Source of the DNA: Novipirellula galeiformis
GTDB taxonomy: Bacteria; Planctomycetota; Planctomycetia; Pirellulales; Pirellulaceae
Assembly: GCF_007860095.1 (NCBI RefSeq)
Contig: NZ_SJPT01000006.1
Span: 124,001-188,000, forward strand
Direction: 5' to 3'
Length of the DNA: 64,000 bases
Shown here in pieces: positions 53,489 through 64,000 of this stretch. Numbering within the stretch: the stretch's first letter is position 1; the number at the start of each line of letters is the position of its first letter. The position numbers were made by a program, and so were the translations under genes. A model generated the notes under the pieces. That model saw only the letters and a program-made list of their open reading frames with translations, did not search any database and was not told where the DNA came from.

Positions 53489-54194
53489 GACGTTCGCCCG
53501 TGGCGTTGATCGTTGCCACTTGGCTGGGACGAGTTGTTCGCCAGCGCCGTTCCCTTGATCGAGGGTGGACTTCGTTGCGCGCCATTGAGCATTCATCATG
53601 GTGTTCTCCGATGCTAAGTCGATTGACAAACGGGGACCGCTTCTATCAACCACGTGGCGTGATAAAGAGCGTCTGGCTTTGTCCGCGTGTTTGGATTCAC
53701 AAAGAGGCCCTCGTGCAAGCGTGCGCTCGTCGTGCGAGTACGCGTTATCCCCTCCTTCTAGACGAAGCCACGGCCAAGATAGCAAAAGTCTACGACGATG
53801 TAAAAAAAGGGGGGCTCGATGATCGATTGCGGGCCCGTTGGCGAGCCAGTATTGAAACTCAGCGTCCAACTCGCCGATCGCAAACCTGTCCACTGCGTCG
53901 CTTCAGAAAACAGATGGTCTCGCGAATCCGACAACCGTCCGCCAAACGGCAACGATTCTGGCTCCGGTCGGCGACCGTAAGCGAATGGCCTTTTGAATCA
54001 AAACAAGATCGCGTTGCTGAGGATGAAGTGGCGAAGCGTGGTTTACCCATCGCGTTCACGTCGGAAACGAATCAAGACGACGACCGACATTTCTTGGCGA
54101 ACTCGTTGGCATTAAGGTTGCGGGCTTTCGAGCTATCGAAGACAGTTTGTATTCGATAGCTCGAATCATCCAGCCCACTCGCATTCATTCAATC
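53489..54194. other. Intergenic region between divergent genes
   Basis: About 700 bp between the phosphatase-fold protein and the MscS-type gene. Long accidental frames cross it on both strands, but none has a domain or start signal I can support. Promoters for both genes should lie here. Confidence 0.4.
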
Positions 54195-57100
54195 ATGTCA
54201 ATCAAAGCCAATGGCGGGTTCCCACCAGGCGAGCCTGTACCGAACCGTCTACGCACTTGCCTCGCCGCGATCCCTCACCCGACTGCGCTGCCGTGGTGCG
54301 TGCTGGTAATCGTGCTGGCGGGGTTACCAACGGGAGCCCTCGGCCAACAGAATGGCCAACAGGGGGGTGACATTCCTAAACCCGTGACGATTGAAAATCC
54401 GATAGGAGATCGCGATGCGGTCGATGCGACCACGATTGAAGCAGGACTCGCCGCACTCGCGGCGGCCGAATCCCTGGACCCAAGTTTAAAAACGTCTCTG
54501 GAGGATCTGTATCAGCAAGCGAAGCAGAATCTCAGCGCCGCGGAGTTGAGCGCGAAGAATGCTCAGCAACTCGAGGCGATGGCGGCGGAAGCTCCCGCCA
54601 GGATGAAACAGGCCAAGATGGATTTGGATTCCAAGGAAGTGGTGAAGTGGACGCTTGATCCCGACGCCACCGTGGAATCGATCAAACAAACATTGGCGGA
54701 ATCGCAGCTAGAACTGAATGAGCTCGTCTCCACCGAAAGCAAATTGACGACGGCGCCGGGGCGCAGCCAAAAGCGGCTTACTGAAATTCCGCAAGAGATC
54801 AGCCAACTAGAGAAAGATCTTGAGCAGGTCGAAAAGCAACTCGCCAACCCCGCCTTGGCGAATGAGCCTGCGGTGCAAACGCAAGCACGGACGACCCAAC
54901 TACGATCCAAACGCCAAGCGTTACGGATGAAAATGGAGGAGCTCCGCAAGGAACAGGCGGCATACCTTGCCACCACCGAACTCGTGGCGTTGCAGAAACA
55001 GTTGGCGGATCGAGACATTGCCACACTTCGCAATGAGGTGCAGCAATTGCAGGAGACGTTAACCCAACGTCAGCGAAGCGAAGTTGCCGATAAGATCGAA
55101 AATCTTCGCGATGATCTCCAACGCGTTCCAGAGAAACTTAAGCCACTTGCGCAACGCAACATCGAAGTCACCGAGCAACATCAAGCGTTGGTTAACGAGT
55201 CCGCCCGAGCGAATGCCGAGCTCAACGAGACACGGGCGGCATTCGAAGACGTCAAGAACACTTTGAAAATCTCGCAAGAGCGACTCGAAGCGATCGGGTT
55301 GACCGATGCATTGGGATTGATGTTGCGGAACAAACGCAACGAATTCGAAGAGCTACGTAATAAATTTCGCCCGCGTGCTGATTTACAAGAAAAGATCCAA
55401 CAACATCAAATCAGCGTCTTTAGCTTGGAAGACTCCGCCGAAGAGGTCGACGAAAGAATTGCAGCGATTCGGGACTCCGCTCACCTAGCCGAGGAGCTCG
55501 AACTATTACGAAGACGCAAAGAGTTGTTGGTCGCAACGATGCAGGCTCAAAACTCAATCTTGCAAACGATGTTAACCGTGGACACCCAGCGACACGAACT
55601 TCGGAACGTGATCGACGAGTACATTGATTTTGTCGATCAAAACGTATTTTGGATTCGCAGCTCGCCTGCGTTTTCCCTTCAGGAACTGAAATATGTCCCT
55701 GAAACGCTCCGCTGGCTGGCGGAGCCTACGAGTTGGCGGAAGGTGCTGGATCAAATGATGCGGAATTTCGTCTGGCGACCGCTGCGTTCGCTGCTGGGAT
55801 TGCTGGGCGTGCTAGCGTTGTTTGTTTATCGCATCAAACTGCGGCGCCTCGTCTATGAGTGCGGCGAACAAGCACTGCGTCCAAACGCCAAATTTCGGAT
55901 CACCGCGACCACGTTGTTTTTCACAATTTTAGTGGCGTGTGCTTGGCCGGCACTCTTTAGATGGATCGGTTGGATGTTGCTGAGTAATCTCGGCAATGAT
56001 GCGTTCGTCAACGGAGTCGGAAATGCCTTCTCGATCACCGCGTTATTCATTGCTTCGCGTGAATTGATCAAAGAGGTTTGTCGCGACCATGGTTTAGCAC
56101 AACTTCATTTCGGCTGGGACAAAGCGGTCCGCTCGATGCTCCGCTTCCACCTGCGCTGGTATACCGTGCTCGGAGGCATCCTCATTTTCGTGATGGTGAT
56201 GATTCAGGATCACTCCGATACCCAACTGCGTGCCACCGCATCGCGACTCACCTCGATTGCCCTGTTCCTGGTAACCGCTTCATTTCACAGCATTGTTTTC
56301 TCGATCAAGAGCCCGATTTTTCTGCAAGCGCGGCGGCACAGTGCCGATTCCAAAGCGTATTTGTGGCGGCGGGTGATCTGGTTCGGCCTGACTGGATTTC
56401 CAATCGTATTTGCAGGACTCGCCTTCGCCGGCTATCTCGACACGGCATTCAACTTGGGCACGTTGATGCAGTATTCCATTTTGCTGCTCGTGTTGGTGCT
56501 GTTGTTGATGGCGTTGACGTTCCGGTGGCTGAGTTTGCATTACCGCGAAGTGGCGCGACGCCAAGCTCGTGAACAGCGTGAAAAGAAACTCGCCTCGCTG
56601 CAATCCTCTGCGACGGATGGTTTAACAACGGACGTTGGCATCGAGCTTCAAGAGGAAGACCAGGCCGATCTGCCGAAGCTTGATCGACAAACGCGTCAAT
56701 TGATCTATGTGGTGGCCACCGTGTTTTCGTTGTTCGGATTTGCCCTGATTTGGAGCAATGTCTTACCAGCCATCGAGATTTTTGATCGTGTCGAACTGTG
56801 GAGCGTGCACATCGGGAAGGACATGGAAGTGGAAGTGGTGACCTTCCGCGACATGCTCTATGCAATCGCAGCGATCGTGGTCCTCGCCTATTCGGTTCGC
56901 AATTTACCCGGGCTGGTCGAGTTATTTGTGCTGCGTCAGACCTCGCTCGATAGCGGCGCGCGTTATGCATTGACCACGATGCTGCGTTACGCGTTGACGG
57001 TCACGGGGGCATTGGTCGTATTGAATATTATCAGTGTGCCATGGACACAACTCGGTTGGTTGCTTGCCGCCGCCTCGGTGGGACTCGGTTTTGGTTTGCA

Positions 57101-57698
57101 AGAAATTGTCGCCAACTTTGTCTCGGGCATCATTTTGTTGCTCGAGCGGCCCGTTCGAGTCGGAGATGTCGTGACGATCGACAACACCACCGGAGTCGTT
57201 TCACGCATCCAAATGAGAGCGACCACGATCACCAGTTGGGAACGCAAAGAATTGGTGGTTCCGAACAAGGACTTGATCACCGGCAAGATCCTCAACTGGT
57301 CGCTTTCGAACGTCATCAATCGGTTGACCATGGAAGTGGGAGTGGAATACGACGCCGATCCCGATCAAGTCCGCGACATCCTAGAACACGTGGTCACGAA
57401 GCACCCTGATGTGATGGAAGATCCTGCTCCATTGATCAACTTTGACACCTTCGGAGACAGCTCACTCAATTTCTCGATTCGCTTTTACTTGGCGAATTTA
57501 GATCGCCGTGTCGGAGTCACGCACGAGATAAATACGGCCATCCTTACGGCCCTTCGTGCAGCCGATATCTCGATTCCCTTCCCGCAACGCGATTTGAACC
57601 TAAGCGTCAAAACGGACACACACCCGTTGTCGGTCCACCTGCAACCGCAACGCGACGGAGTTTCACTCGGTCATTCCGATGGAAAGCCACGGCGATAA
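54195..57698 (+). CDS. Large mechanosensitive channel (MscS superfamily, MscK/MscM-like)
   Basis: 1167 residues. A signal/anchor segment (WCVLVIVLAGLPTGALG) is followed by a ~450-residue periplasmic coiled coil of the MscS-porin type, a block of about ten membrane helices (roughly 540-960), and the conserved MscS core at about 965-1060: the pore helix LGWLLAAASVGLGFGLQEIV, ANFVSGIILLLERPVRVGDVV and TTITSWERKELVVPN, then a C-terminal cage domain. Layout and size match MscK/MscM, which open under osmotic down-shock. Start ATG 54195 preferred over the 16-codon-longer frame. Confidence 0.88.
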   Translation: MSIKANGGFPPGEPVPNRLRTCLAAIPHPTALPWCVLVIVLAGLPTGALGQQNGQQGGDIPKPVTIENPIGDRDAVDATTIEAGLAALAAAESLDPSLKTSLEDLYQQAKQNLSAAELSAKNAQQLEAMAAEAPARMKQAKMDLDSKEVVKWTLDPDATVESIKQTLAESQLELNELVSTESKLTTAPGRSQKRLTEIPQEISQLEKDLEQVEKQLANPALANEPAVQTQARTTQLRSKRQALRMKMEELRKEQAAYLATTELVALQKQLADRDIATLRNEVQQLQETLTQRQRSEVADKIENLRDDLQRVPEKLKPLAQRNIEVTEQHQALVNESARANAELNETRAAFEDVKNTLKISQERLEAIGLTDALGLMLRNKRNEFEELRNKFRPRADLQEKIQQHQISVFSLEDSAEEVDERIAAIRDSAHLAEELELLRRRKELLVATMQAQNSILQTMLTVDTQRHELRNVIDEYIDFVDQNVFWIRSSPAFSLQELKYVPETLRWLAEPTSWRKVLDQMMRNFVWRPLRSLLGLLGVLALFVYRIKLRRLVYECGEQALRPNAKFRITATTLFFTILVACAWPALFRWIGWMLLSNLGNDAFVNGVGNAFSITALFIASRELIKEVCRDHGLAQLHFGWDKAVRSMLRFHLRWYTVLGGILIFVMVMIQDHSDTQLRATASRLTSIALFLVTASFHSIVFSIKSPIFLQARRHSADSKAYLWRRVIWFGLTGFPIVFAGLAFAGYLDTAFNLGTLMQYSILLLVLVLLLMALTFRWLSLHYREVARRQAREQREKKLASLQSSATDGLTTDVGIELQEEDQADLPKLDRQTRQLIYVVATVFSLFGFALIWSNVLPAIEIFDRVELWSVHIGKDMEVEVVTFRDMLYAIAAIVVLAYSVRNLPGLVELFVLRQTSLDSGARYALTTMLRYALTVTGALVVLNIISVPWTQLGWLLAAASVGLGFGLQEIVANFVSGIILLLERPVRVGDVVTIDNTTGVVSRIQMRATTITSWERKELVVPNKDLITGKILNWSLSNVINRLTMEVGVEYDADPDQVRDILEHVVTKHPDVMEDPAPLINFDTFGDSSLNFSIRFYLANLDRRVGVTHEINTAILTALRAADISIPFPQRDLNLSVKTDTHPLSVHLQPQRDGVSLGHSDGKPRR

Positions 57699-57716: not shown

Positions 57717-59183
57717 TTAGAAATCGAGCTGGGCTCGCATTGCGAAGATATCCGCATCGCTTTCGCCATAAGTCGGCCGGTCGAGCATCGCGTGAATGTA
57801 GTTGAATTGGAACTTGGTATAGGGGTTGAGGTACCAATTCAATCCCGCGGTCAAATCGTTCAAGCGTCCGCCTTGAATGTTTTCATCGTTTAAGTCGAGG
57901 TAGGACCATCGGCCGGCGATCTCCCACGCTCCGATGCCACCTTCGTTTCCAACACTACGATCGGGAGTCACCCGTCCAAAGACTCCGTTTTTCCCGTTGT
58001 ATTTTCGCGTCTCGCCCGTCAAGAAATAGCCTGCGTGAGCATAAGCGCCCGGCAAGGTGAGGGTGGGTCCGGCGGGTTGGGTCACCACCGCGTAGCTCGC
58101 TTCACTTTGTGCATAGAACGATCCGTACGCCAGCGCGAGTTCTGCGTTGAACAGGTTGGCGTTGTCCGCGGCGAATGCGCCGGTGTCGACAAACGCTGGC
58201 ACATTTGCAATCGCTCGTGTGGGCACTCCGCCACCGGTTTCGCCGACAGCGACCTCCGGTTGGTTACGATATTGGAATTGGTCATTGGCCGGATCAATGA
58301 AACTGTAACCACCACCGAGGTGGACGAGCCCCTTGCCATCGCCGCGATTGACAAGCAGCCCCGTCAACCGAGTTGCCATTCCGTAGCCACCGTTGTCGCC
58401 GACGTTACCACCGAATGTATCCGTGGGGTATCGGAACCCGGCGATGGCCCAGGTTGCGAGCTCGTCTTTACGGTTGCCGTAAAGCATCGCACCGATTTGT
58501 CGAAACGGCAAAAAGGCGAAGGGCAAGGCTCGTTCGAGAAAGGTCATTTCTCGAACACTCGTGAGTCCATCCATCCCAAAGGGTTGACGGAACTGTCCCA
58601 CCCGCAAGTTGCTCGATCCAAGCACATCGTCAATATCGAGCCAGACGTCCATGAAGCTAGGACGTCCGGGAAAGGCAAAGTCCATTTCGAGCATGTAGCT
58701 CACATTGTCCCACGCCTGGCCGGTCGCCGCCAAACGCGCACGACGAAAGTCGGCACCATCTTGGATATCTCCGTCGGCGGCAATCCCGCCTCCGAGCGTT
58801 TCCATGTTGGCACGGTCTTGGCTAAAACCAACCGCATCAGCCTGGAAGAATCCAGTAAGACGGGCGGTGGGGTATTTCGGTTTCGTGGGGTATGTCGGTT
58901 TCTCCGAGGGACAGCACAACACGGGGGCGGAGGAGAAGGTCGCCGTCGAGGCCGCCGACGAAATGACGCTGGCCGATTTGAGTTCGTCAATCTGTTGTTG
59001 CATCCGCTGAAGTTCAAACTGGACTTCGTTGGAAAGGATCATGCCGTCGGAGACGGGCGGTGATTGCGCGGACGCCGAGGAATGAAGGCAGATTGCCGCT
59101 AGCCCCACCGCGAACCATGATTTCAGTCCTGCGAGCGGCCGCCACTGTCCGCGAGCGGGGCGAGTTTGAAGTGGGCATTCCAT
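57717..59183 (-). CDS. Outer-membrane porin (phosphate-selective porin O/P-like)
   Basis: 488 residues from ATG 59183, with GGGAG before it. After a signal peptide (WFAVGLAAICLHSSASAQ) comes a short coiled coil (LQRMQQQIDELK), then a beta-barrel with alternating aromatic strands and a terminal Phe (FAMRAQLDF), as required for outer-membrane insertion. LRVGQFRQPFGMDGLTS and RRARLAATGQAWDNVSYMLEMDF match OprO/OprP-type porins. It is divergent from the sensor kinase. The paired TGCA sites at 59367-59401 are about 185 bp upstream, so it may be part of that regulon. Confidence 0.82.
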   Translation of the reverse strand: MECPLQTRPARGQWRPLAGLKSWFAVGLAAICLHSSASAQSPPVSDGMILSNEVQFELQRMQQQIDELKSASVISSAASTATFSSAPVLCCPSEKPTYPTKPKYPTARLTGFFQADAVGFSQDRANMETLGGGIAADGDIQDGADFRRARLAATGQAWDNVSYMLEMDFAFPGRPSFMDVWLDIDDVLGSSNLRVGQFRQPFGMDGLTSVREMTFLERALPFAFLPFRQIGAMLYGNRKDELATWAIAGFRYPTDTFGGNVGDNGGYGMATRLTGLLVNRGDGKGLVHLGGGYSFIDPANDQFQYRNQPEVAVGETGGGVPTRAIANVPAFVDTGAFAADNANLFNAELALAYGSFYAQSEASYAVVTQPAGPTLTLPGAYAHAGYFLTGETRKYNGKNGVFGRVTPDRSVGNEGGIGAWEIAGRWSYLDLNDENIQGGRLNDLTAGLNWYLNPYTKFQFNYIHAMLDRPTYGESDADIFAMRAQLDF

Positions 59184-59366
59184 TGCCGAGGTCTCCCTTG
59201 GGGGGTGTTTTACACATCGGGCGGGGACGGTAGAGAATGCTGATTGCATTCAACGCTCGTCGCCCTCCGAGTAATCCTGGTAAGGGTATGAGTCGGCTTA
59301 TCCGCCCGCGAAACTCCAGTTGGGAAAGGCGATTTGCTATTCCCTAGAGTAAAATAAAAAAGTTGC

Positions 59367-59401
59367 TGCAATGCCCTGCATTCCTCCTGCAATTCGCTGC
59401 A
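59367..59401. promoter_or_regulatory. Paired TGCA-N6-TGCA sites (probable activator binding)
   Basis: Two 14-bp units, TGCAATGCCCTGCA (59367-59380) and TGCAATTCGCTGCA (59388-59401), with TTCCTCC between them. Start-to-start spacing is 21 bp, two helical turns, which places two dimers on one face. The arrangement is identical to 62711-62745. Most likely bound by the NtrC-like regulator encoded downstream. Confidence 0.65.
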
Positions 59402-59505
59402 TGAAAAGGGCGTTCGATCATGGAATCGTTGGATTCGACGTGGGCTTATTGCGGAAGCTCCGCAATTTTGAAAGACTTCGAGCGAGTTCGGATGATTCCT
59501 GACGC

Positions 59506-59539
59506 TGAGCGTATTTTGATAATGAGCGTATTTTGATAA
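59506..59539. repeat. 17-bp exact tandem duplication
   Basis: TGAGCGTATTTTGATAA occurs twice in a row in the porin-kinase intergenic region. Confidence 0.9.
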
Positions 59540-59764
59540 TTCGAAGCGCCAGCGAGGGAAGATCGATCATGATTCCGTCTGTTGCGAACGCTTCGGGTTG
59601 CGATTGTGCCCGTCACTTAAAAGTCGTAACACCTTTCGGAGTCATCGGTTAGGGCATTCTGGAGCGATCGGATGCACGATCCAATCGAGGGCCGTAGGCT
59701 CACCCCATCCTCCCGGTTTTCCTAACAACTGGTTCCACGTTCCAAAGATTGAAACGCCCACCGC

Positions 59765-61144
59765 ATGCCTCAGAATCAGCTGAACCCCACGATGTTTGGC
59801 GTCCCCGATGGACGTGGAGTCCGTCGATTTGCGGCCGGATTAGCCTTCCTTAGCCTCGTGGCGTTGAGCGTAACGGCCTGGATTTTCTTTGATGTCGCGC
59901 GTGAACAAGAGATCGTCGCCCGCATCATCACGCATCTGCCGCAGAGTGATATGGCGGTCGTGGAAGAGCTTTCCGGCGACCTTCAATTGCGTAGCAAGCT
60001 CTCGTTGCTGTTGGTATTGAACATCGTTGGCACTGCAATTGCTTTCGCACTCGTGGTCCGAGGTTACGTCACCAGCGAGCAATCCCTTCGCGACGCCCAA
60101 GTCTTGGCGACCGACATTCGAGCCAGTTTGGATGGGGGCATTATTACGACCGATCAAGAGGGGCGAATGACCAGTCTAAATCCGCGTGGTCGAGAACTGT
60201 TGGGGCTTTCCGAGGACGACGGCGAGGGAATGACACCGTCTCAGGCGGGCAGTGAACATGCCCTGCTCGACGCGATCTGTCATGAAGTCAATCAGCATCA
60301 AACTCCGATTCGTGACCGCGACTATACGATCCTACGCAATGGTTATGAACATACGCTGCGTGCGGGGTGCACCCGTCTAAAAAACCAACGAAACGAGGCG
60401 GTCGGCACGGTGATTCATGTTCGCGATGTGACCGAGCGGGTGTTAATGGAGCAACGACTGCGGCGGATGGAACGCTACATGGGACTCGGTTCCCTCGCCG
60501 CCGGGCTGCAACATGAAATCAAAAATCCGCTAAGCGCCCTGTCGCTTCACCTGCAATTGCTAGGTGAGCATGTGTCCCAAAATTCCCCCGATGTTGAAAC
60601 GCAAGAGCTACTCGACGTGCTGCATACCGAAGTCACTCGCATCACGCATGTCTTGGATAGCTTTCGAAATTATGCATCGGTCAACGAACTGGGACGTTCC
60701 TGGGTCGATGTCGCCACCCTCATCGAAAAATTGGTCCGGTTTCTGCATCCGCAGGTCAAGAAGCAAAACGTCATCGTCAAAGTGGAGCTGCCCCCTCAAT
60801 CACTCGGTTCGATCGAAGCCGATTCGGGGCGGCTCGAACAAGTACTGTTGAACTTGGCGCTCAACGCGCTCGCCGCGATGCCCGATGGGGGGACGTTGCA
60901 ATTCCGCTTGAGCCGGATCCAAGACTCGCTTCGTATTGATGTCAGCGACACCGGAAACGGCATTCCCATGGAAATCCAATCACAGGTTTTTGATCCTTAT
61001 TTCACGACGCGCAACGACGGCACCGGGATGGGATTGGCGCTGTGCGACAAGATCGTTCGCCAACACGCAGGCAGCATCGACTTTCGCACCAGTCCTAGCG
61101 GAACCGAGTTTTCAGTGATGTTACCAATGGAAGGAAACGGATGA
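59765..61144 (+). CDS. NtrB-like sensor histidine kinase
   Basis: 459 residues. Two membrane helices (about 21-42 and 79-101) enclose a short (~35-residue) periplasmic loop. A PAS domain follows (about 115-230: DIRASLDGGIITTDQEGRM). The dimerisation/phosphotransfer domain has LQHEIKNPLSALSLH with the phosphorylated His, and the ATPase domain has LNLALNALAAMPDGG (N box), DTGNGIP (G1), FTTRNDGTGMGLALC (G2). Autophosphorylates on a signal and passes phosphate to the regulator, whose ATG overlaps its TGA. The short sensor loop suggests a membrane or internal signal. Confidence 0.9.
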   Translation: MPQNQLNPTMFGVPDGRGVRRFAAGLAFLSLVALSVTAWIFFDVAREQEIVARIITHLPQSDMAVVEELSGDLQLRSKLSLLLVLNIVGTAIAFALVVRGYVTSEQSLRDAQVLATDIRASLDGGIITTDQEGRMTSLNPRGRELLGLSEDDGEGMTPSQAGSEHALLDAICHEVNQHQTPIRDRDYTILRNGYEHTLRAGCTRLKNQRNEAVGTVIHVRDVTERVLMEQRLRRMERYMGLGSLAAGLQHEIKNPLSALSLHLQLLGEHVSQNSPDVETQELLDVLHTEVTRITHVLDSFRNYASVNELGRSWVDVATLIEKLVRFLHPQVKKQNVIVKVELPPQSLGSIEADSGRLEQVLLNLALNALAAMPDGGTLQFRLSRIQDSLRIDVSDTGNGIPMEIQSQVFDPYFTTRNDGTGMGLALCDKIVRQHAGSIDFRTSPSGTEFSVMLPMEGNG

Positions 61145-62502
61145 ACTCCGATGCATTTAGCTTACTAGTCGTCGATGACGAGCCGAATATCCGGTCGGGG
61201 CTCGCCAAAGGGCTGGCCGGAGAAGCCGACATCGTGGATACCGCGGTCGATGCCGACGACGCACTCGCGAAATTCGAGAAAGCGGACTACCAATTGGTGA
61301 TCGCGGACGTTCGGTTGAACTGTGGTATCACCGGAATCGAACTGCTAAAGAAGATCCTCTTCTCACGTCCGCAAACGGCCGTGATTATGATCACTGCGCA
61401 TGGAACCGTCGAAATGGCGGTCGAAGCAATGCATGCTGGCGCCTTTGACTTTATCTTAAAACCGCTCGACTTGAATCTGATCCGACAACAGGTCCGCAAA
61501 GCGCGTCAGTATCACCAACTTCGCGTTGAAAACCAACGCTTGCGAAATCGATTGGCCAGCGCAGGGGAAGTCTCCAACATCATCGGCGGCGGCGCTGCGA
61601 TGCAGGGTGTGTTACAGCAAATTCGGCAAGTCGCTGCAACCGAAGCCACCGTGATGATCCAAGGCGAAAGTGGCACGGGGAAGGAGTTGGTTGCTCACGC
61701 GCTGCACGATTTGAGTGATCGCAGCAGTGGTCCGTTCATTGCCGTGAATCTTGGAGCGATGCCCGAATCGCTATTAGAAAGTGAACTGTTTGGGCACGAG
61801 AAAGGCTCCTTCAGTGGGGCCACCCGCCAGAAACCGGGGTGCTTCGAACAGGCCAGCGGGGGAACGTTGTTCTTGGACGAAGTCACCGAGATGTCGGCCA
61901 AAAGCCAAGTCGATTTGTTACGCGTGCTCGAATCCAGACGCTTCACTCGCGTGGGTGGCGAAGCACAGTTGCAAACCGATGCGAGAGTCGTCTCGGCCAC
62001 CAACCGCTCCGTCGAAGACTTGATCGCCGACGGCACGTTTCGCGAAGATTTGTTCTATCGACTCAATGTGATCCCGATTGAAGTTCCCGCGTTGCGAGCG
62101 CGGCGTGAGGATATCCCATTGTTGGTCGAACATTTTTTAGAGCATTTCTGTAAACGCTACAATCGAGAGATCAAACGACTCGCGCCCGAGGCGATGCAGA
62201 CGATCGTTGCCGCTCCTTGGCCCGGTAACGTCCGGCAACTTCGCAATGTGATCGAGCGTGTCGTGGTAACGCACACCGGAAATGTGATTCACAACGTCGA
62301 GCTGCCATCGGAGCTGACCCCCAAACAAAGGGACAATCGCGCATTGCCCCCTACGTTGGCCGAAGCGGTCGAAGGCTGTGAACGCGAGACGATCCAAATC
62401 GCATTGGAAGCATGCGATTTGCACCGCGAGAAAACGGCCAAAGCGCTCGGTGTGAGTGTCCGTACCCTGCATTACAAGATGGGGCGTTACGGGCTGCATT
62501 AG
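61141..62502 (+). CDS. NtrC-family sigma-54-dependent response regulator
   Basis: 453 residues in three parts. Receiver (1-120): acidic pair VVDDEPN, phospho-Asp in VIADVRL, Thr in MITAHG, Lys in ILKPLD. AAA+ domain (about 140-370): Walker A GESGTGKE, the sigma-54-contacting loop reads GSFSGA instead of GAFTGA, Walker B GGTLFLDEV, and arginine finger region FREDLFYRLNVIP. C-terminal Fis-type helix-turn-helix (about 405-453: ALEACDLHREKTAKALGVS). It overlaps the kinase by 4 bp. Activates sigma-54 promoters after phosphorylation; likely target sites are the TGCA pairs on both sides of this operon. Confidence 0.92.
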   Translation: MNSDAFSLLVVDDEPNIRSGLAKGLAGEADIVDTAVDADDALAKFEKADYQLVIADVRLNCGITGIELLKKILFSRPQTAVIMITAHGTVEMAVEAMHAGAFDFILKPLDLNLIRQQVRKARQYHQLRVENQRLRNRLASAGEVSNIIGGGAAMQGVLQQIRQVAATEATVMIQGESGTGKELVAHALHDLSDRSSGPFIAVNLGAMPESLLESELFGHEKGSFSGATRQKPGCFEQASGGTLFLDEVTEMSAKSQVDLLRVLESRRFTRVGGEAQLQTDARVVSATNRSVEDLIADGTFREDLFYRLNVIPIEVPALRARREDIPLLVEHFLEHFCKRYNREIKRLAPEAMQTIVAAPWPGNVRQLRNVIERVVVTHTGNVIHNVELPSELTPKQRDNRALPPTLAEAVEGCERETIQIALEACDLHREKTAKALGVSVRTLHYKMGRYGLH

Positions 62503-62710: not shown

Positions 62711-62745
62711 TGCAAAAAATTGCATGCCTCCTGCACTACTCTGCA
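62711..62745 (+). promoter_or_regulatory. Paired TGCA-N6-TGCA sites upstream of a sigma-54 promoter
   Basis: TGCAAAAAATTGCA (62711-62724) and TGCACTACTCTGCA (62732-62745), separated by TGCCTCC. Start-to-start 21 bp, and the spacer ends in CCTCC exactly as at 59381-59387. The position, about 125-155 bp before the -24 element, is standard for NtrC-type enhancer sites. Confidence 0.7.
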
Positions 62746-62867
62746 TGATGTTGCTTTCGATTCTGACCCTCGCTTGAATTTTCGGAAAAAGGACATTTTT
62801 TATCTGCGGTTTTTTGCGGCGTGATATCCCTGTTTGAGTGATAGCCACAGGATCGCGACTTTGGGTT

Positions 62868-62883
62868 TGGCATCCCCCTTGCT
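62868..62883 (+). promoter_or_regulatory. Sigma-54 (-24/-12) promoter
   Basis: TGGCATCCCCCTTGCT agrees with the consensus TGGCAC-N5-TTGCW except for one base. The invariant GG and GC are 10 bases apart, as required. Expected transcription start is near 62894, giving a leader of about 35 bases to the ATG at 62928. Confidence 0.8.
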
Positions 62884-62927: not shown

Positions 62928-64000
62928 ATGCAAGATGCCGTCGCGAGTCTTGTCCCCAGCCAGGATGCCCCCACCGATCATTCAAGCAATCGACAAGACA
63001 AGCTGCGATCGGCGATCGAGCATGCGGCTCATTACCTGCCGTCGCAAGGTCCGATCTCCATCTTCGTGCACCACAATACGCTCCATTCGTTCGAGGAGAT
63101 GCCCTTTGATGAGGCGGTCGTTGAAGGTGGAAAGCTTTATGGTTGCGAACCTTACCTCAGCGAGGGACGTTACCGAGACGAGCTCAATCGTGGCCGAATT
63201 TCCGTCGACGATCTGCGCCAAGTTCTGATGGATCATCTCGAGGAAGAGGCAGACGAATTGGTCGCCAGTTTCGGGACGCGTTACACCTTGCGATTGGCGA
63301 TGTTGCAGATGACATTGCATTCGGTCCCGGATGCCGAACTGCGTTGGCTGCTAGCGGAAACGGACATGCTGCGTCATTTCCGCGATGACATTTCAGCTCC
63401 CCGTCGTGAACAAATGATCCAGCGAACGCGTGCCTGGGTGATGCGTGATCGCGAGTTAGCATCTCACCCGTCCGCTCCGGTGGCATCCGCCGCGACGTCC
63501 GAAGCCGATGCTTCGGAGCAGCTTCGAGGTACGACTGCGAGTCGATTGCCGCCGATCGTCGAAACGCTGATCGCCGAATCGGGAGGCGACAAAATCCAGT
63601 CTTGGAGCGACGCTCAATGGGAAGCGTTCGTGCTGAAATTGTTGTGGCGAATTTGCCGCGCCGGTGTCTCCACGACGAGCCTACCGTCGTCAAACGACTC
63701 GACACCGCTGCGGATCCGAGAGTTGTTGCTCGACGCGACCGGGGACGATACCGACGCGTTGGTCAACGACGTGCTGATCCGTTTCTGCGGTAGCTTCCTC
63801 GATCAAGGCTTTGCGAATTGGTCCTTGCCCCATCGTGACGAAGGGTTTGCTAGAGCGTTCGCCAAATTGTACTTGCATCGCATGACCGTCAAAGCGAGTT
63901 GGATGGAGGGGATCGTTGATGAGTTGCAAGCGATTTTAGATGGCCCGTTCGACCCGCTCGCATCGATTGCCAAGTCACTCGAAACGTTGGGCGTGGAGCC
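62928..64000 (+). CDS. dabA: DabA-type inorganic carbon transporter subunit (partial, DUF2309)
   Basis: First 357 codons of a larger gene cut by the window edge; family members are about 800-1100 residues. FVHHNTLHSFEEMPFDEAV near residue 45 is the hallmark N-terminal motif of DUF2309/UPF0753, and the helical region after it (LYGCEPYLSEGRYRDELNRG) follows the family. DabA pairs with a membrane proton-translocating subunit DabB to capture CO2/bicarbonate; its zinc ligands and the DabB gene would lie beyond the window. GGAG precedes the ATG at 62928. The sigma-54 promoter and paired enhancer sites directly upstream imply control by the adjacent two-component system. Confidence 0.85.
   Translation, partial: MQDAVASLVPSQDAPTDHSSNRQDKLRSAIEHAAHYLPSQGPISIFVHHNTLHSFEEMPFDEAVVEGGKLYGCEPYLSEGRYRDELNRGRISVDDLRQVLMDHLEEEADELVASFGTRYTLRLAMLQMTLHSVPDAELRWLLAETDMLRHFRDDISAPRREQMIQRTRAWVMRDRELASHPSAPVASAATSEADASEQLRGTTASRLPPIVETLIAESGGDKIQSWSDAQWEAFVLKLLWRICRAGVSTTSLPSSNDSTPLRIRELLLDATGDDTDALVNDVLIRFCGSFLDQGFANWSLPHRDEGFARAFAKLYLHRMTVKASWMEGIVDELQAILDGPFDPLASIAKSLETLGVE

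Follow-up and report, generated by a model that had tools for sequence, protein, structure and literature searches.

A 35-letter element occurs twice in a 64-kb window of the Novipirellula galeiformis genome, raising the question of which protein reads it and which genes it controls. The window is the whole stretch of 64,000 bases that was analysed and corresponds to C6:124001-188000 of genome G000. An earlier note on this DNA had described the two copies, at 59367-59401 and 62711-62745, as sites of identical layout that were too regular for chance, that formed the operator of one regulator and that tied a porin, a kinase/regulator operon and dabA into one regulon. The layout TGCA-N6-TGCA-N7-TGCA-N6-TGCA was exact at both positions, with 0 mismatches each. 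Very probably, the element is bound by the two-component regulator encoded alongside it and serves to turn on genes for bicarbonate/CO2 uptake.

The first copy (59367-59401, unstranded) lies between the divergent genes of an outer-membrane porin and a sensor histidine kinase and is the proposed autoregulatory/porin operator. The porin of the OprP/OprO family (PF07396) is encoded on the minus strand at 57717-59249, with an alternative start at 59183. The kinase, with PAS, HisKA and HATPase domains and an AtoS-like C-terminal part, is encoded on the plus strand at 59765-61144. It is followed on the same strand by an AtoC-like response regulator of REC-AAA+-Fis HTH type (61141-62502), the proposed binder of both boxes. 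The second copy (62711-62745, unstranded) is located between the regulator gene and dabA and is the proposed upstream activating sequence of the latter. The 5' part of dabA occupies 62928-64000 on the plus strand and the gene extends past the window; its product reached 763 bits over the full length against PF10070, with a cut-off of 25. The genes that come after dabA, past the end of the window, are a NuoL-like dabB carrying Proton_antipo_M/N, a NuoM-like gene and a gene in which SulP is fused to PII. This last gene, at L210:761-2791 on G000:C6, encodes a transporter of the SulP family with a P-II domain (PF00543) at its C-terminus. The P-II domain on a SulP transporter is a possible built-in energy/carbon sensor.

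The perfect pattern was present in just these two copies in the genome, which comprises 7,403,604 bases on 30 contigs. Based on the frequency of TGCA, 264 in the 64,000-base window, 0.002 perfect sites per genome were expected, and the claim of the earlier note is therefore not refuted by a genome-wide frequency at chance level. In 100 dinucleotide shuffles, 0.03 matches with up to two mismatches were expected in the window, and two matches were obtained in 0 of the 100 shuffles. A genome-wide search with up to two mismatches yielded two places beyond the real sites, compared to three for a reversed-pattern control, and the two real sites are therefore distinct from background.

Across the family, the perfect pattern with its 7-bp spacer was detected 53 times, in 44 of the 241 genomes and with no more than three sites per genome, and the reversed control gave 0. 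Flanks of up to approximately 8 kb on each side of a site were examined, contig permitting, with gene starts taken from a simple longest-reading-frame caller. In an automatic count, 46 of the 53 sites had a homologue of the kinase, regulator, DabA, DabB, SulP or porin starting nearby, defined by a best blastp hit with E<=1e-6 whose gene begins -150 to +900 bp from the site; some of these assignments are weak, with DabB-like hits of 24-28% in L051, L066 and L067 and a SulP hit of 32% in L035. Seven sites were outside this count: L052, L055, L061, L072, the second L074 site, L078 and L079. The site of L061 overlaps a carbonic-anhydrase reading frame, and at L072 the site is adjoined by the regulator and SulP. 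For five of the 53 sites, L052, L055, the second L074 site, L078 and L079, no link to these genes was found. The L052 site lies within a predicted gene and the second L074 site adjoins a PDZ protein. Perfect boxes were also seen near an aquaporin (L079, ~8026), a CitMHS transporter (L055, ~7992) and an amino-acid permease (L078, ~8049), with neither the regulator nor dabA found in the examined stretches of these three loci. L066 and L067 have a dabA homologue that contains an in-frame TGA. Next to it lies a second NuoL-like gene with a box of its own and, 120 bp away from that box, a sigma-54 match.

The two spacers of G000, TTCCTCC and TGCCTCC, both end in CCTCC. The earlier note had made this ending part of the shared layout, and the description is correct for these two sites. 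As an element of the operator, however, CCTCC was rejected, since it occurred in only two of the 53 family sites, both in G000.

Sampling across the phylum identified the perfect pattern in 19 of 392 genomes, three of them in the family. The 16 genomes from outside the family were examined at one locus each, and a kinase, DabA or porin homologue was found within 1.5 kb in 13 of them; at L193, L201 and L205, none of the three was found within this distance of the box. A divergent porin-box-kinase arrangement with a perfect box was present at five loci of another order of the class (L197, L198, L199, L200 and L202). The extra-family dabA loci all had a sigma-54 match of at least 5 (4/4), 150-197 bp from the box. 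TGCA is a short palindrome and single boxes are only mildly rare, with four observed in the window versus 1.5 expected, so that two TGCA-rich stretches might be thought to resemble each other fortuitously. Against this stand the expectation for perfect pairs and the recurrence of the same gene neighbours throughout the family. Chance was rejected as the origin of the boxes, its probability being negligible, and the regularity noticed in the earlier reading was confirmed.

The occurrence of the element followed that of the regulator. Regulator orthologues (E<=1e-140) were found in 75 of the 241 family genomes, among the matches listed. The perfect site was present in 42 of these 75 genomes versus 2 of the 166 regulator-negative ones (p 8e-24, relatedness ignored). 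The two exceptions were G202, which has a regulator fragment less than 2 kb from its site, and G147, whose site is the one within a predicted gene at L052. The perfect 7-bp-spacer site was missing in 33 of the 75 regulator genomes, partly because spacers of 5, 6, 8 and 9 bp occur. With any spacer from 0 to 30 allowed, at least 90 of the 241 family genomes matched, and the reversed control was then above zero.

Paired boxes upstream of dabA were searched for within 500 bases, with a spacer of 5-9 and at most one mismatch. Of 40 regulator-positive genomes that had been selected independently of the site, 32 had such a pair (24 without mismatch, 8 with one), compared to 0 of 38 regulator-negative genomes, where the best matches had 4 mismatches (p 1e-14, relatedness ignored). 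The positive set contained one dabA per genome and excluded the dabA fragments of G056, G067, G179 and G201. The negative set started from 40 genomes, a subset of those with dabA and mostly hits reaching the N-terminus, of which L161 (no DabA hit) and L137 (20 bases) were dropped. The dabA operator was not found in eight of the 40 regulator-positive regions (G015, G020, G065, G075, G082, G092, G111 and G113). Among regulator-positive dabA loci that had been found via a site, 22 of 23 had the box within 500 bases (20 exact, 2 with one mismatch). Across 54 genomes, the spacer of the box upstream of dabA was 7 in 28, 6 in 17, 9 in 5, 5 in 2 and 8 in 2. It was 7 (21 genomes) or 6 (8 genomes) in the 29 genomes whose best regulator was less than 67% identical to this one, and ranged from 5 to 9 in the 25 genomes with closer regulators.

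The regulator itself carries PF00072, PF00158 and PF02954, all above cut-off, corresponding to a REC domain, a sigma-54 AAA+ domain and a Fis-type HTH. The phosphorylatable Asp of REC was kept in 30 of 30 aligned sequences. The loop expected as GAFTGA reads GSFSGA in this protein; the 30 aligned sequences comprised GSFTGA 13 times, GAFTGA 10 times, GSFSGA 4 times and GAFSGA 3 times. A relative of the regulator, 64%, was found in Rhodopirellula baltica. Genomes contain dozens of candidate relatives according to first-look counts, and paralogues of 60-64% identity adjoin the same boxes (62-64% at the perfect 7-bp-spacer boxes of L053, L054, L056 and L058), which would allow a different Fis-type enhancer-binding protein to read the boxes. 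This alternative is improbable in view of the location of the boxes next to this regulator or its targets and their near absence where the orthologue is absent; in G000, there was one match at E<=1e-140 among the matches listed. The neighbouring regulator is thus retained as the predicted binder, in agreement with the claim that the sites are the operator of one regulator. In the genomes of the four paralogue loci, the dabA operators have a 9-bp spacer, and a -24/-12-like sequence, CGGCCCATCAATTGC, was present in L053, L054 and L058. On the far side of the box in L058, the only one of these loci scanned for such genes, a cytidylate-kinase-like gene, HlyD and AcrB-type efflux genes were found. 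Paralogues with the same box beside efflux genes indicate that use of the box is not confined to carbon-uptake genes.

A putative sigma-54 promoter was identified between the second box and dabA. The -24/-12 sequence TGGCATCCCCCTTGCT at 62868-62883 on the plus strand lies 122 bp past the box and begins 60 bp before the dabA ATG. In the region 62711-62883, the GG-N10-GC motif is thereby no more than a few hundred bp away from the box, as in a sigma-54 promoter with an enhancer. Such a placing of box and -24/-12 elements is the one classically seen at enhancer-dependent sigma-54 promoters. The same arrangement was examined in the family by scoring GG-N10-GC with a threshold of at least 4 of 6 points in 52 of the 54 operators, L068 and L104 being left out with less than 500 bases. 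A -24/-12 match between box and dabA was present at 45 of the 52 loci versus 1.9 expected from mononucleotide shuffles, and the distance from the box end to the best match was 92-156 bp in 46 of the 52. In regulator-negative dabA regions, 4 of 38 had a match, the stretch searched being a fixed 265 bases there and the interval from box end to gene start in the positives. With high confidence, both sites are predicted to be operators of the neighbouring regulator, the dabA copy acting as a sigma-54 enhancer. The proposed tie between the kinase/regulator operon and dabA is borne out by co-occurrence, the boxes upstream of dabA, the sigma-54 promoters and the recurring neighbours.

The known system with comparable features is AtoS-AtoC of E. 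coli, which is likewise encoded by a kinase/regulator gene pair. AtoC is 42% identical to the regulator over residues 8-452, including the HTH. The atoD promoter of E. coli contains TGCA-N6-TGCA followed by CGCA-N6-TGCA, with 15 of 16 box letters matching, and its -24/-12 promoter TGGCACTCCCCTTGCT is located at -61, compared to -60 for TGGCATCCCCCTTGCT. The sites upstream of atoD that were tested in vivo for AtoC, GCTATGCAGAAATTTGCACA and, on the other strand, GCTATGCAGAAAATTGCGCA, contain the same box, according to the available part of that report (PMC3118216). The systems differ in the spacer, which is 5 in E. coli and 7 here, and in the targets, which are acetoacetate/short-chain fatty-acid genes in E. 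coli and inorganic-carbon uptake here. Among curated models, the AtoC model NF008469 was the best for the regulator, with 451.7 bits at a cut-off of 714, ahead of the NtrC model TIGR01818 with 421.8 bits at a cut-off of 558.6. The kinase reached 260.2 bits against the AtoS model, with a cut-off of 646. With these scores under the curated cut-offs, neither protein is an AtoC/AtoS member by the curated rule. The similarity of the kinase to AtoS begins only after residue 105, indicating that the sensing part differs.

Classical NtrC-like nitrogen control was considered as well, since NtrC has the same protein architecture and also uses TGCA-containing palindromes. However, the targets here are carbon-uptake genes, NtrC was second to AtoC among the curated models with both under cut-off, and the N6 spacing of the box is the same as that of AtoC. 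Nitrogen control is accordingly rated very improbable. A paired TGCA-N6-TGCA upstream of a sigma-54 promoter, the arrangement of an AtoC-type operator, was found here. From the boxes at dabA, the sigma-54 promoter and the atoD-like layout, the element is classified at the level of sequence as an AtoC-type operator predicted to control inorganic-carbon uptake.

The target operon resembles the DAB systems of chemolithoautotrophs in the order of dabA (PF10070) and NuoL-like dabB. It differs from them in the sigma-54 promoter with enhancer, the NuoM-like gene and the SulP-PII fusion. Elsewhere, LysR-type regulators control such DAB genes. No paper on the control of DAB genes in planctomycetes was present among the best literature matches listed, which were mostly from non-subscription journals. 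DAB homologues also occur in heterotrophs, as stated in the available part of a 2026 paper on the DAB2 complex, whose main text contains no word beginning with 'transcription' (PMC13144422). A 2025 survey of sigma-54 regulons that included planctomycetes names MscS channels and ZraR-like regulators in the part available, and the terms bicarbonate, carbonic, SulP and DUF2309 are absent from its main text (PMC12316311).

The first copy, at 59367-59401, differed from the dabA copy in its surroundings. No -24/-12 match of at least 3.5 of 6 was found on either side within 400 bp and at least 60 bp from the box, and a sigma-54 promoter for the porin or the kinase was rejected at this site. A second mode of action must therefore be assumed there. 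Likewise, there was no -24/-12 match at the porin/kinase site of L051 and the kinase site of L048, and L047 showed one match of 4.0 on the kinase side, 318 bp off. On the kinase side of the box in G000, a 42-bp conserved block (59439-59480, plus strand) has 35 of 42 bases as in one congeneric genome. It contains the TTGAAA of a weak sigma-70-like match at 59468-59496, which is a consensus match only. Further towards the kinase start, the 17-mer GAGCGTATTTTGATAAT forms a perfect tandem pair at 59507-59540, a part without counterpart in the aligned congeneric genome.

Boxes were also present upstream of kinase or regulator genes that had no porin, dabA or SulP opposite, for example in L046, L048 and L069. 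Together with the missing sigma-54 promoter, this suggests that the 59367-59401 copy serves autoregulation first, and it likely autoregulates the kinase/regulator operon. Whether it also acts on the porin was assessed with 29 porin homologues in regulator genomes. An upstream box was found for 8 of the 29 with 0-1 mismatch and for 12 of the 29 with 0-2 mismatches; L187 and L189 had less than 100 bases upstream. A kinase or regulator gene was divergent from seven of the eight porins with a 0-1-mismatch box, so that autoregulation can account for these boxes, and from ten of the twelve with a 0-2-mismatch box. The scan for porin-side promoters covered 15 family porin loci, 12 of them with a 0-2-mismatch box, and at the 11 boxed loci other than this one no -24/-12 match of at least 3.5 was found towards the porin. 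No 0-2-mismatch box was present in L168, L169, L174, L178 and L179, five relatives in which a kinase homologue is encoded divergently from the porin.

These observations would fit a site that serves kinase/regulator autoregulation only, with the divergent porin as a bystander: no sigma-54 promoter points towards the porin here, boxed porins are mostly those facing a kinase or regulator gene, and boxes occur at such genes with no porin opposite. On the other side, porin orthologues track the regulator, being present in 26 of 75 regulator-positive versus 5 of 80 regulator-negative genomes (p 1e-5, relatedness ignored; the 80 had a completeness of at least 90% and include G202 with its regulator fragment). 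The porin-box-kinase order also recurs in another order, where L197 and L200 have a sigma-54 match towards the porin at 145-146 bp from the box, while L198, L199 and L202 had no porin-side match of at least 4. Moreover, the porins of G016 and G070 have a box, with 1 and 2 mismatches, and no kinase or regulator homologue in the examined stretch, and DabA was found in the examined stretch of 5 of the 29 porin loci. The bystander explanation is a substantial possibility that falls short of an even chance. From the sequence comparisons, the chance that the porin is a regulated member appears somewhat better than even. Of the single regulon proposed earlier, the link between kinase/regulator and dabA stands and the inclusion of the porin is less supported.

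The porin belongs to the Porin_O_P family with 170.3 bits at a cut-off of 20.9. OprP and OprO of Pseudomonas were the only solved relatives identified by profile search, with E-values of 2e-32 and 2e-29. The arginine-rich stretch of OprP is anion-selective. This stretch, TRIRPRMGMRG, aligned to YRNQPEVAVGE in the porin of G000, and since it is not conserved the phosphate selectivity of OprP is not transferable to this porin. The alignment comprised 20 of the 29 homologues, with L165, L169, L175, L177, L181 and L187-L190 left out as truncated, near-duplicate or overlong frames. A structure model with a mean pLDDT of 76.6 and a pTM of 0.70 predicted barrel-like strands; the conclusions are independent of the model. 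A role of this porin as an outer-membrane route for bicarbonate or another anion, as suggested in the earlier note, is hypothetical.

The sites and how rare they are, the promoter, the joint occurrence with the regulator and the recurring gene neighbourhoods are seen in the sequence; from them, we infer binding, phosphorylation, the direction of regulation and the signal. The 35-bp element would consist of two adjacent dimer-binding boxes, 21 bp apart from centre to centre, i.e., about two helical turns. The binder would be the NtrC-family response regulator encoded at 61141-62502, with the kinase of 59765-61144 as its partner. Phosphorylated regulator on 62711-62745 would act as an enhancer, activating sigma-54 RNA polymerase at 62868-62883 and switching on dabA-dabB-nuoM-like-sulP::PII for inorganic-carbon uptake. 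At 59367-59401, the same regulator would control its own operon and perhaps the porin via promoters not recognisably of sigma-54 type. Action of the regulator through both boxes in this manner, with the dabA copy as sigma-54 enhancer, is considered very likely.

A guess from the target genes is that the signal is low CO2/bicarbonate. A wider reading, in which a planctomycete inorganic-carbon-sensing two-component system uses one AtoC-type operator to coordinate DAB, SulP-PII as bicarbonate transporter, a dedicated outer-membrane porin as anion entry route and, in one genome, carbonic anhydrase, is tentative and rather unlikely. If it were true, the AtoS-like kinase, whose sensing region is different, would read the CO2/bicarbonate status, and heterotrophic bacteria would have a response to low CO2 that does not depend on LysR-type regulators. 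The strict operator and its sigma-54 promoter recur in the family and in another order of the class; they point to the regulator, the likely signal pathway and the targets, and low-CO2 sensing in such bacteria thereby becomes open to direct testing. They would also carry the operator architecture of AtoC beyond E. coli into another phylum and to different targets.

A further sigma-54-like sequence, TTGGCATTAAGGTTGCG, was observed in the window at 54106-54122, upstream of a gene for an MscK-like mechanosensitive channel (54147-57698). MscS channels are enriched among the predicted sigma-54 targets of Planctomycetia in the available part of the 2025 survey (PMC12316311).
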